In this document: positions 30,882-34,209 of the stretch, in pieces
Layout: every line of letters begins with the position of its first letter
Position numbering within the stretch: the first letter of the stretch is position 1
Assembly: GCA_020630275.1 (NCBI GenBank)
Contig: JAHDBU010000007.1
Span: forward strand, 1 to 37,020
Direction: 5' to 3'
DNA length: 37,020 nucleotides
Origin: Hellea sp.
GTDB lineage: Bacteria; Pseudomonadota; Alphaproteobacteria; Caulobacterales; Maricaulaceae
Position numbers and translations under genes: made by a program
The notes under the pieces: model-generated
Told to the model about the DNA's origin: nothing
The model's input: only the letters and a program-made list of their open reading frames with translations
Databases searched by the model: none

Positions 30882-31673
30882 ATGAAAACGACGTTCTCTC
30901 GCAAAAAAACAATGGCCGCCCTCTTACTGGCCGCGGCGACAGTCGGACTTCCGACGACCTCATACGCTGACCCGGCTAAATCTCACCGTTATCAGGATTG
31001 TAAAGAAGCCGACCGCGAAGGTCAGTTAATCGGCGGTCTTGTGGGCGCAGTTGCCGGCGGAGTCGCCGGACGTGAAATTGCCGGACGAGGCGACCGAACC
31101 GAAGGCGCGGCTATTGGCGCTGCCGTTGGCGCCCTGGCAGGTGCGACAATAGCTGACAAAGACTGTAGAAACCCTTATCGAAGAACCAACAACTATGACC
31201 GACGCGGAAGCTACGGTTATAATAACACCTATTATCGCGGTGATACCTATCGCACCGGTGGTAATTATGGATATCGTTCAGGCCCTAGCCCGCGCGGCGT
31301 CGCCAGAGGTAATCCTCATGTCCATGGTCACCGTATCCACGGTTCCCGCTGGGGCTTTAGCAACCGTCACCGCGATTGGCGCCGGAATGAAACCCTTAAA
31401 GAGCGTATTAAGTGGGAAATGGAAGAACTGCGGCGTGAACGTGAGTACCTGATCGACAAGCGTCGTTACGTTCGTTACGATCGGGATCTGGACCGCCGCT
31501 TGCGTCGAATCGGCGACGAGTTGGACCACCTAAAGCGCGAGCTTAGATATGTGAAAAAAGGTCTGACCTACCGAGATTATGACCGGATTCGGTACAGAAC
31601 GAATGATCGTTACTATGACCGCGACTACCGCGACTACCGGAGAGATAATTACTACTACAAAACCAAAAGGTAG
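30882..31673 (+). CDS. Secreted glycine-zipper protein with Arg/Tyr-rich coil
   Basis: A 263-residue exported protein. Signal peptide 1-29 (cleavage near SYA-D). A glycine zipper spans residues about 47-92 (GGLVGAVAGG, then GAAIGAAVGALAGA), flanked by Cys40 and Cys95. A Tyr/Arg/Asn-rich low-complexity linker follows. Then come a strongly charged helical coil (about 165-225, with ELRRERE and RRLRRIGDELDHLKRELR) and a Tyr/Asp/Arg tail. The zipper resembles the 17-kDa surface antigen and Rick_17kDa / Gly-zipper_2TM class of outer-membrane-associated proteins. A canonical AAGGAG site precedes the ATG. A strong terminator follows. It is the first of three tandem proteins of this kind. Confidence 0.85.
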   Translation: MKTTFSRKKTMAALLLAAATVGLPTTSYADPAKSHRYQDCKEADREGQLIGGLVGAVAGGVAGREIAGRGDRTEGAAIGAAVGALAGATIADKDCRNPYRRTNNYDRRGSYGYNNTYYRGDTYRTGGNYGYRSGPSPRGVARGNPHVHGHRIHGSRWGFSNRHRDWRRNETLKERIKWEMEELRREREYLIDKRRYVRYDRDLDRRLRRIGDELDHLKRELRYVKKGLTYRDYDRIRYRTNDRYYDRDYRDYRRDNYYYKTKR

Positions 31674-31698: not shown

Positions 31699-31722
31699 AG
31701 CCCGGCTTCGCCGGGCTTTTTT
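31699..31722 (+). terminator. Intrinsic terminator after the first glycine-zipper gene
   Basis: An 8-bp perfect stem (AGCCCGGC / GCCGGGCT, 31699-31706 and 31710-31717) closes a 3-base TTC loop and runs into a T-tract ending at 31722. It lies 25 bp after the stop codon. Confidence 0.9.
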
Positions 31723-31870: not shown

Positions 31871-33412
31871 ATGAAACGTTACATGTTAAGCGCTGCTGCG
31901 GCAGCACTGCTTGTCGTACCGACGACAGCACATGCCCAGTTCTCGGGCATAGATACTGAGGAAGCGCTAGGTGCCGTCATAGGGGCCGGTATCGGTGGAG
32001 CAATTGGCTCCAACTTAGCCGCCGGAGATGTTCAACAAGAAGGTACAGCCGTTGGTGCGGTTGTCGGGGGACTTCTCGGCGCAGGTATCGGACACAAACT
32101 ATCTGGGTCTTCCCGTTACGGCGGTCACAGTGGTGGGCACTATGGTGGACATCACGGTGGCGGACACTATAGCGGCCATGCTGGCCACGGCGGTGCCGCT
32201 TATGGTGGGGCCTCACGTTACGGATCATACGGGTATCAAAGTGGCGGATATGCCCATGGTGGTGCCGTTTCACACGGCGGTGGCTATGTTGCCGCTCCGC
32301 CTCCAATGCCTGCACCAACTGTGCACGGTGGCGGTTTTGTCCAGCAAAGTGTCACAACAGCTCCAGCCTACCGGACTGTTACAGTACACCGCCCTGTCAC
32401 GACGACCCAAAGCGTCACAGAGATGCAGCCTCACACTGAAATGGTCCCAGTAACGGTTCAAAAACCTGAGGCAGTACAACGTGCTGTTACGGTCATGAAG
32501 CCTGTTACGACAATGAAACCGGTTCAAACCATGAAGCCTGTTACCGTGATGAAACCTGTTCAAACTATGAAACCAGTTGAGGTTATGAAGCCCGTTGAGG
32601 TTATGAAACCTGTTCAGACCATGAAACCTGTGACTGTCATGAAGCCAGTTGAGGTTATGAAACCTATTCAGACTATGAAACCTGTTACGGTTATGAAGCC
32701 TGTTGAAGTCATGAAGCCTGTCACCAAACAGCGCACTGTGACGAAGCAGCGTCCGGTTACCAAAACCAAAGAAGTCACTGTGATGAAAGAAGTCAAAGTG
32801 ATGAAGCCGGTGACTGTCATGAAGGAATTCATCGAAATGCAGCCGCATACAGAAGTCCAGACATATACAGACTACGAATCATACACTGATTACGAATCAT
32901 ATACGGATATGGAACGCGCGACAGAAATGCAGCCGCACACAGAAATGCAGCCGCACACCGAAATGCAGCGCGCGACAGAGATGCAGCCACATACCGAAAT
33001 GCAGCCGCACACTGAAATGCAACGCACAACGGAAATGCAACGCACAACAGAGATGCAGCCGCATACAGAGATGCAGCCACATACTGAAATGCAGCCGCAT
33101 ACAGAGATGCAGCCACATACTGAAATGCAGCCGCACACAGAGTACAAGACTGAAACAGTCATGAAATCTGTGACAGAATTGAAACCGCAAACTGTTATGA
33201 AGCCTGTAACTGTTCAAAAACAGGTTACAACCATGCAGCCACAGACAGTTACAGAGCCTGTCGGTAATGTGGTCATTGGTGGATCAGGTCCTAATGTTGT
33301 AGGCGGTGGCCTGCGTGGCATGGCACCAACTGGTCACACTGGTGGCGGCGTCTATTGCTACTCTGGCAGCAATGTCCGTTACGACAGTTGGGGTAATAAG
33401 GTTAAGTGCTAG
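31871..33412 (+). CDS. Secreted glycine-zipper protein with 50-unit hexapeptide repeat domain
   Basis: A 513-residue exported protein. Signal peptide 1-22 (AHA-QF). Glycine zipper about 33-75, including GSNLAAGDVQQEGTA. Gly/His/Tyr-rich region 82-140, then a Pro/Ala linker. Residues 167-466 are 50 consecutive six-residue units without a single break in phase. A basic block of MKPVxV/T units (about hexads 7-26) passes into an acidic, Met/His-rich block of MQPHTE, MQRATE and YESYTD units (hexads 27-43), then mixed units. A short C-terminal domain has Cys496 and Cys513, possibly a disulfide. The alternating pattern suggests beta structure. AGGAG lies nine bases before the ATG and a strong terminator follows. 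I know no function for it; structural, surface or metal-binding roles are inference. Confidence 0.88.
   Translation: MKRYMLSAAAAALLVVPTTAHAQFSGIDTEEALGAVIGAGIGGAIGSNLAAGDVQQEGTAVGAVVGGLLGAGIGHKLSGSSRYGGHSGGHYGGHHGGGHYSGHAGHGGAAYGGASRYGSYGYQSGGYAHGGAVSHGGGYVAAPPPMPAPTVHGGGFVQQSVTTAPAYRTVTVHRPVTTTQSVTEMQPHTEMVPVTVQKPEAVQRAVTVMKPVTTMKPVQTMKPVTVMKPVQTMKPVEVMKPVEVMKPVQTMKPVTVMKPVEVMKPIQTMKPVTVMKPVEVMKPVTKQRTVTKQRPVTKTKEVTVMKEVKVMKPVTVMKEFIEMQPHTEVQTYTDYESYTDYESYTDMERATEMQPHTEMQPHTEMQRATEMQPHTEMQPHTEMQRTTEMQRTTEMQPHTEMQPHTEMQPHTEMQPHTEMQPHTEYKTETVMKSVTELKPQTVMKPVTVQKQVTTMQPQTVTEPVGNVVIGGSGPNVVGGGLRGMAPTGHTGGGVYCYSGSNVRYDSWGNKVKC
32369..33268 (+). repeat. In-frame 18-bp repeat array (50 hexapeptide units)
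   Basis: Fifty consecutive 18-bp units, exactly 900 bp, encode residues 167-466 of the secreted protein. Units 8-20 and several later ones read MKPV plus two variable residues; eleven units read MQPHTE. Synonymous codons vary between units (for example PHTE as ccgcacacagaa, ccacataccgaa, ccgcatacagag). So the protein sequence has been maintained while the DNA has diverged. A higher-order 54-bp unit (QT-TV-EV triplets) is seen in the first block. Confidence 0.95.
33053..33124 (+). repeat. Exact 36-bp tandem duplication inside the hexad array
   Basis: Bases 33053-33088 and 33089-33124 are identical, each encoding MQPHTE twice with alternating codon choices. The identity of silent positions marks this as the most recent expansion of the array. 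Confidence 0.95.
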
Positions 33413-33432: not shown

Positions 33433-33460
33433 AAAGCGGCCCTTCGGGGCCGCTTTTTTT
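33433..33460 (+). terminator. Intrinsic terminator after the hexad-repeat gene
   Basis: A 10-bp perfect stem (AAAGCGGCCC / GGGCCGCTTT) around a stable TTCG tetraloop (33443-33446) is followed by a T-tract to 33460. It begins 20 bp after the stop. Confidence 0.93.
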
Positions 33461-33576: not shown

Positions 33577-34209
33577 ATGAAGTTTAAAATTGGATATGTA
33601 TTAGGCGCTGCGGCACTTATGGCAGCTGCTCCTATTACGGCCTCGGCCCATGATAATGGTTACCACCATCGTCATCAAAGTAATGATGGCAGCCGCCTTT
33701 TAGGCGCTGCGATTGGTGCCGTTGCTGGTGGCGTATTAGGTTCAAACCTGGCAGCTGGTGATGTGCAGCAAGAAGGCACAGCTTTAGGCGCAGTTCTGGG
33801 TGGTGTTGCCGGTTACGCCATTGCTGGCGGCGGCGGCAGCAACTATTACGGCGGCAACTACTATAATGGCGGTTATTATGGCGGTGGATATTCCGGCGGT
33901 TATTACAACACATCCTACCCGTCTTACAGCTATAGTTATCCGCAATATAGCTATCCAAGCCATAGCTACAGCTACCCAACCACATACCGGACGACAACAA
34001 GTTACCACTCCTACCCAAGCTATAGCGGCAGCTACTACTCGCGGCCATATTATGGCGGCTCATATTATAGCCGTCCATCGATCAATATAAGCCTGGGAAC
34101 TGGCAGCTATTATCGACCACGCTATTATGGATCACGTTTCTTTGGTTCCAGCCTGCGTAATCGTCATCATCATAGACGTCGTCATCACCACCGTAGACGT
34201 CATCACTAA
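33577..34209 (+). CDS. Secreted glycine-zipper protein with Tyr/Gly-rich body and His/Arg tail
   Basis: A 210-residue exported protein. Signal peptide 1-23 (ASA-HD). A short His-rich start to the mature chain (HDNGYHHRHQ) is followed by a glycine zipper (about 37-85) containing GSNLAAGDVQQEGTA, identical over 15 residues to the preceding gene's zipper. The body is Tyr/Gly/Ser/Pro-rich (YYGG, YPSYSYSYP), like adhesive or amyloid-type low-complexity sequence. The last 17 residues (194-210) are almost only His and Arg. ATG 33577 has AGGAG seven bases upstream; the open frame back to 33463 has no signal peptide at its start. The gene follows a terminator and ends in one. It may bind metals or polyanions through the tail; this is inference. 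Confidence 0.87.
   Translation: MKFKIGYVLGAAALMAAAPITASAHDNGYHHRHQSNDGSRLLGAAIGAVAGGVLGSNLAAGDVQQEGTALGAVLGGVAGYAIAGGGGSNYYGGNYYNGGYYGGGYSGGYYNTSYPSYSYSYPQYSYPSHSYSYPTTYRTTTSYHSYPSYSGSYYSRPYYGGSYYSRPSINISLGTGSYYRPRYYGSRFFGSSLRNRHHHRRRHHHRRRHH

Follow-up and report, generated by a model that had tools for sequence, protein, structure and literature searches.

Hexad array and its conservation

How does a chain built of 50 consecutive six-residue units fold, and what holds so repetitive a sequence in register? The question is raised by an open reading frame of 513 amino acids (31871-33412, plus strand, as are the protein segments and neighboring genes given below) in a 37,020-nucleotide stretch of contig JAHDBU010000007.1, deposited as Hellea sp. 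and referred to here as the window. A sequence-only reading of the window had described 50 unbroken hexapeptide repeats in this protein, and residues 167 to 466 (32369-33268) do divide into exactly 50 in-phase hexads, uninterrupted by any insertion or deletion. At a lag of six residues, identity within the array is 0.61, whereas 2000 shuffles averaged 0.11 and never exceeded 0.18. The consensus is M-K/Q-P-V/H-T-V/E. Whereas the hexad register holds throughout, the Met/Val-x-Pro core that the same reading took as common to the units does not describe a single series, as there are several hexad types laid out in mirrored blocks, an arrangement which that reading overlooked.

Silent codon variation had been taken as a sign of selection on the protein, and the counts agree. 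The 11 MQPHTE units are spelled by 9 DNA versions, and comparison of the hexads with those of the nearest ortholog yields 119 synonymous and 15 nonsynonymous differences (dS about 1.3, dN about 0.02), giving a dN/dS of about 0.016, a rough value because dS is near saturation. Judged by these substitutions, the hexad array is under strong purifying selection.

A hexad profile matched 13 of the 137 genomes of the family, with one hexad locus per matched genome, and found no further relatives among 385 genomes sampled from the class and 398 from the phylum. The matches come from two genera; the named relatives are Hellea sp. MAGs, two uncultured Caulobacterales MAGs, and Hellea balneolensis DSM 19091, which is classed in Maricaulales, Robiginitomaculaceae. 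In group A, from the window's genus, the hexads are fused to a glycine zipper and a cap. Group B proteins (Hellea) comprise a signal peptide, a short Cys segment, the hexads, and a PVPVP/Cys tail, without a zipper. A 28-residue center, EVTVMKEVKVMKPVTVMKEFIEMQPHTE, is identical between the window protein and the H. balneolensis protein, while the flanks differ. Both arms of the array on either side of this center are free of Gly and of Cys in all 13 relatives.

Two weak matches from the class- and phylum-level samples were rejected as relatives, one (G296) being a reading frame that overlaps another repeat ORF and the other (G645) a DKPVTA-type repeat within a longer protein. A scan of viral contigs found no relative. 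Among the plasmid and phage tblastn matches, three from plasmids were inspected and proved to be simple repeats of no relation, RPVGTR and TEIQPT arrays among them.

Mirror symmetry and matched arm lengths

The array is organized about a conserved center, K312-P-V-T315-V-M-K318 (32804-32824), which would be either the tip of a hairpin or the 2-fold axis of a two-chain assembly. The KPVTVMK motif is the same in 13 of 13 relatives except for one V-to-I change. It contains no Gly, Asn, or Asp, and the hexad phase runs through it unbroken. The first arm spans residues 167 to 314 (hexads 1 to 25; 32369-32812), and the second spans residues 316 to 463 (hexads 25 to 50; 32816-33259). Across the center, a block of MKPVxV units (hexads 8 to 19; 32495-32710) faces a block of MQ(P/R)(H/T/A)TE units (hexads 31 to 43; 32909-33142), and the Arg/Lys hexads 20 to 23 (MKPVTK, QRTVTK, QRPVTK, and TKEVTV; 32711-32782) face the Tyr/Asp hexads 28 to 30 (VQTYTD, YESYTD, and YESYTD; 32855-32908).

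Arm lengths were counted as residues from fixed anchors to the central Thr of KPVTVMK, and by this measure the window protein has 148 residues before that Thr and 150 after it. The arms of group A (n = 8) measure 148/150 in both the window protein and its nearest ortholog and 136/138, 124/126, 118/120, 88/90, 88/90, and 82/84 in the others, the second arm being always exactly 2 residues longer. In group B (n = 5), they measure 93/101 four times and 111/119 once, and the second arm is always exactly 8 residues longer, including in the protein that has gained 18 residues per arm. The difference between the arms is constant in 13 of 13 proteins (2 in group A, 8 in group B) despite indels, and lengths vary by whole hexads, by the same amount on either side of the center. 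Among these few (13) and related homologs, the length matching of group A corresponds to 1 of 2520 distinct permutations. On a tree of the flanking genes, the two 88/90 proteins do not group together, so several separate length changes were each matched. Copying of one arm into the other was considered as the source of the matched lengths and excluded, since the two arms encode different unit types.

Complementary units across the center

The pairing register places T-d opposite T+d, such that residue i of the window protein faces residue 630-i. Of 49 offsets tested, offset 0 gives the highest mutual information between the arms, whether group A and group B are taken separately or pooled, and the next-best values fall at neighboring even offsets, as expected for such blocky sequences. 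In this register, MKPVxV lies opposite MQPHTE and [QTS]RxVT[KR] lies opposite xE[SNT]YTD, with the position rules M1:P3, K/R2:Q/E2, V4:E/D6, T5:T5, and V/K6:H/Y4. The resulting cross-strand pairs are R:E, K:Q, K/R:Y, V:H, V:E/D, T:T, and M:P. Lys or Arg at position 6 of the first arm is opposite Tyr or Phe in 39 of 41 cases, and Glu or Asp at position 2 of the second arm is opposite Arg in 39 of 46; for each rule, 0 of 20000 cyclic-shift controls scored as high.

The facing units also match in number. In each relative, the count of Tyr/Asp hexads equals that of the facing Lys/Arg hexads, single K/R substitutions aside: 8 Tyr hexads face 7 Lys/Arg hexads plus 1 Met in L043, 6 face 5 plus 1 Gln in L036, and 3 face 3 in most other relatives. 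Pro falls on one parity without exception (236/236), and the two faces differ in composition, one carrying Met, Thr, and Pro and the other Val, Lys, Arg, and His.

Structure prediction and fold comparison

For the 275-residue H. balneolensis protein, AF2 (9 sequences) predicts two strands, residues 41 to 146 and 148 to 253, centered on T147, with a pLDDT of mostly 82 to 91. For the window protein (13 sequences), the predicted strands pair 166-228 with 402-464 and 267-311 with 319-363. All of these pairs sum to 630 and are thus centered on T315, so that the conserved motif is the midpoint of both models. The window model is weak at residues 227 to 267 and 365 to 404, where sequences are few, and at the tip; the pTM is only 0.24 to 0.26, and both models are of a single chain. 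AF2 is reported to predict unrealistic repeat-protein structures with confidence (PMC11795689), and the models have value here because their register agrees with arm counts obtained without AF2.

Comparison of the hairpin model with PDB folds (Foldseek, VIA) found generic hairpins, mainly toxin stems, at a TM-score of about 0.1 and Z of ≤3.0. Such generic matches neither assign the model to a family nor exclude one. The stems of beta-barrel pore-forming toxins resemble the model solely in their long beta hairpin arrangement; they are shorter, are not built of repeats, and form barrels.

A predicted two-stranded ribbon and its alternatives

Taken together, the mirror, the compensated lengths, the cross-arm correlation, the pair rules, and the Pro parity argue for a two-stranded antiparallel beta ribbon of complementary hexads. 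Antiparallel pairing of the two arms about T315 is, in our judgment, very probable, and we lean toward pairing within one chain, as the predicted beta hairpin. The chain would run out for about 148 residues, turn at K312-PVTVM-K318, and come back with i opposite 630-i, forming a thin rod; at a rise of about 0.33 nm for each of the 148 residues, its length would be about 50 nm. The complementary unit types plausibly hold the repetitive chain in register, and the parity occupied by Pro can correspond to the outward NH side, in which case it would keep either edge from extending into a larger sheet. The conserved center may nucleate the hairpin, with zipping then proceeding toward the base. The base would be anchored in the envelope by the signal peptide and glycine zipper, with the two-cysteine cap beside it. 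We suggest only tentatively that the ribbon serves as a rigid envelope stalk, exposed at the surface and presenting the conserved tip; that tip could be the working end or only a folding nucleus. To our knowledge, no isolated two-stranded ribbon of this length is known experimentally.

The same local contacts could be made by two chains rather than one. In an antiparallel homodimer, two extended chains would be related by a 2-fold axis at T315 and form a ribbon near 100 nm long, each end of which would carry an anchor and a cap. Such a ribbon could connect membranes or cells or run along a surface. The mirror, the compensated lengths, and the pair rules are predicted equally by this arrangement and by the hairpin, and the homodimer accounts for the center: a KPVTVMK motif devoid of Gly, Asn, and Asp and continuous in phase would be an unusual hairpin turn but is natural for a 2-fold two-chain ribbon. 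On the other hand, AF2, run on single chains, gives a hairpin at good pLDDT for the Hellea protein. Finding the right register should also be more difficult for two repetitive chains than for one that zips up from a turn, and a single envelope would hardly accommodate a 100-nm rod anchored at both ends. We therefore consider the homodimer rather unlikely, though a serious competitor to the hairpin.

All readings besides the hairpin and the two-chain ribbon are, even when combined, improbable. The abundance of Thr, Pro, Lys, and Glu and the differing tandem copy number among relatives would suit an extended spacer, mostly disordered or polyproline-like, whose repeats only set the length. Such a spacer needs no equal arms, matched indels, pair rules, or one-parity Pro, nor a dN/dS as low as that observed, and we regard it as very unlikely. 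The sequence-only reading had expected a regular beta assembly, which is supported; its option of a solenoid is not supported, as the evidence favors a single ribbon about T315. A beta-solenoid or cross-beta assembly with one or few hexads per turn would fit the strict six-residue period, for which the left-handed beta-helix offers a known hexad family. However, a solenoid gives no reason for a mirror center with equal arms, no match to the Pfam hexapeptide repeat was found at E ≤ 1, the arms lack Gly, and AF2 did not choose a solenoid, which makes this reading extremely improbable. It has also to be asked whether the 11 MQPHTE units and the GGH-rich linker that precedes the array bind copper, zinc, or nickel, with repeat number setting capacity. 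The His residues lie within the block paired to MKPVxV, and in certain units Thr, Ala, or Gln stands in their place. HTE-type units number only three in the relative L043, and metal binding leaves the mirror unexplained. As the explanation of the array it is most unlikely, but it is compatible with a ribbon, and both could hold at once.

Comparison with known families

Pfam and NCBIfam contain no family covering the hexads, in keeping with the earlier impression that the units belong to no named family. Neither a strong match to a described family nor pure disorder lacking conservation was found. A PDB sequence search returned a LIM-domain entry in which single stretches matched at E near 1; the likeness is compositional only, and the entry was discarded.

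Short repeats of planctomycete proteins had been named as the nearest likeness. YTV proteins (PF07639) have short Thr/Val-rich repeats and are, like the hexad protein, secreted envelope proteins. As far as profile and description allow comparison, they differ in being Cys-rich, whereas the hexads are without Cys. They are reported only from Planctomycetales, where they are cysteine-rich and located in the cell wall (PMC8567305). The PF07639 profile matched neither the window protein at E ≤ 1 nor the H. balneolensis protein at E ≤ 0.01, and it found no member in 21 genomes in a search run without a positive control. No YTV protein was found on two planctomycete plasmids, and an approximate YTV consensus found nothing in plasmids. 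By description the YTV proteins come closest, but they differ by profile and by cysteine content.

The Pfam hexapeptide repeat is a left-handed beta-helix with the signature aliphatic-Gly-x4, from which the Gly-free hexad arms differ. SMC and Rad50 proteins have antiparallel coiled-coil arms that form a hairpin rod and must stay equal in length; those arms are alpha-helical heptads in ATPases, whereas here there are beta hexads in an envelope protein, and the likeness is one of analogy only. Among the open papers, nothing relevant was found on long beta hairpins or equal-length arms. Judged against the family libraries searched and the open papers, the hexad repeat architecture would be new in kind.

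We think it likely that the hexads represent a new tandem-repeat architecture, a very long two-stranded beta ribbon in which complementary hexad types (Lys/Val against His/Glu, Arg/Lys against Tyr/Asp) and unit-for-unit matched gains and losses make up a register-setting pairing code. If so, sequence alone reveals a beta rod of tens of nanometers with a simple unit-pairing rule, and a rod in two genera evolves by matched hexad gain and loss in two separate arms. It would provide a natural model for register and for aggregation avoidance, through complementary units and one-parity Pro, as well as a template for the design of beta rods on the nanometer scale. Other short-repeat proteins lacking an assigned fold can likewise be tested for matched arm length.

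Probable membrane anchor, gene neighborhood, and related repeat modules

The protein was earlier described as secreted, and a Sec-type signal peptide (residues 1 to 22, MKRYMLSAAAAALLVVPTTAHA|Q; 31871-31936) is indeed present and is kept in the group A orthologs. It is followed by a glycine-zipper-like segment (residues 33 to 77; 31967-32101), so the protein is probably membrane-anchored rather than simply secreted. The segment has a zipper Gly pattern and sub-threshold Pfam matches to PF13441 (E = 1.6e-4; 21.8 bits against a curated cutoff of 28.9) and PF05433 (E = 9e-4; 19.5 bits against 24.2), and a PDB sequence search matches it to SlyB chain 7ojf at E = 0.011. AF2 places helices at residues 29 to 49 and 58 to 77, at a low pLDDT of 40 to 50. 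A Gly/Tyr/His-rich, GGH-rich linker (residues 78 to 166; 32102-32368; AF2 pLDDT about 30) leads into the array. At the C terminus is a two-cysteine cap (residues 494 to 513, VYCYSGSNVRYDSWGNKVKC; 33350-33409), recognized by its conserved motif, CY.GS..RYD..G..I.C, which is kept in group A and has similar counterparts in syntenic proteins without hexads.

The hexad gene lies between two glycine-zipper genes in a three-gene cassette that is conserved across the family, with an unchanged order in orthologous loci. Both neighbors exceed the PF05433 cutoff of 24.2 bits, the upstream gene (30882-31673) with 33.9 bits and the downstream, Tyr- and His-rich gene (33577-34209) with 29.5 bits; the product of the latter shares 50% identity with the beginning of the hexad protein. 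Both thus belong to the glycine-zipper outer-membrane families Rick_17kDa_Anti (PF05433)/SlyB, which the N-terminal segment of the hexad protein resembles. These families have no hexad ribbon, and the syntenic proteins found in other genera have different repeats or lack them. Terminator-like hairpins lie on both sides of the hexad gene, 5' at 31699-31717 and 3' at 33433-33456 (plus strand), and it may therefore be its own transcription unit. The wider neighbors encode chorismate synthase, an alpha/beta hydrolase, an FtsJ-type methyltransferase, and DXP synthase.

The stand-alone hexad proteins (L041:5863-6687, L036, L037, L038, and L042) have Cys immediately ahead of the first arm and also beyond the second. 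These residues would meet at the base of a ribbon and could form disulfides there. In a congener of the window organism (G002; L012:1330-2091), the zipper is the same and the C-terminal cap similar, but hexads are absent, which places the gain or loss of the ribbon within the genus. Two syntenic glycine-zipper proteins of other genera (L016:232-1806 and L021:181-1782) have Cys repeats of about 30 residues, CPAGTTDxGNGTCxEPAxTVxGxAPIVIPx, in place of the hexads, and appear to combine the same anchor with swapped repeat modules. In two further syntenic glycine-zipper proteins (L014:1063-2241 and L023), repeats of the VDRPVVKEVIKHVDRVQYVDRPV type run up to the contig end.
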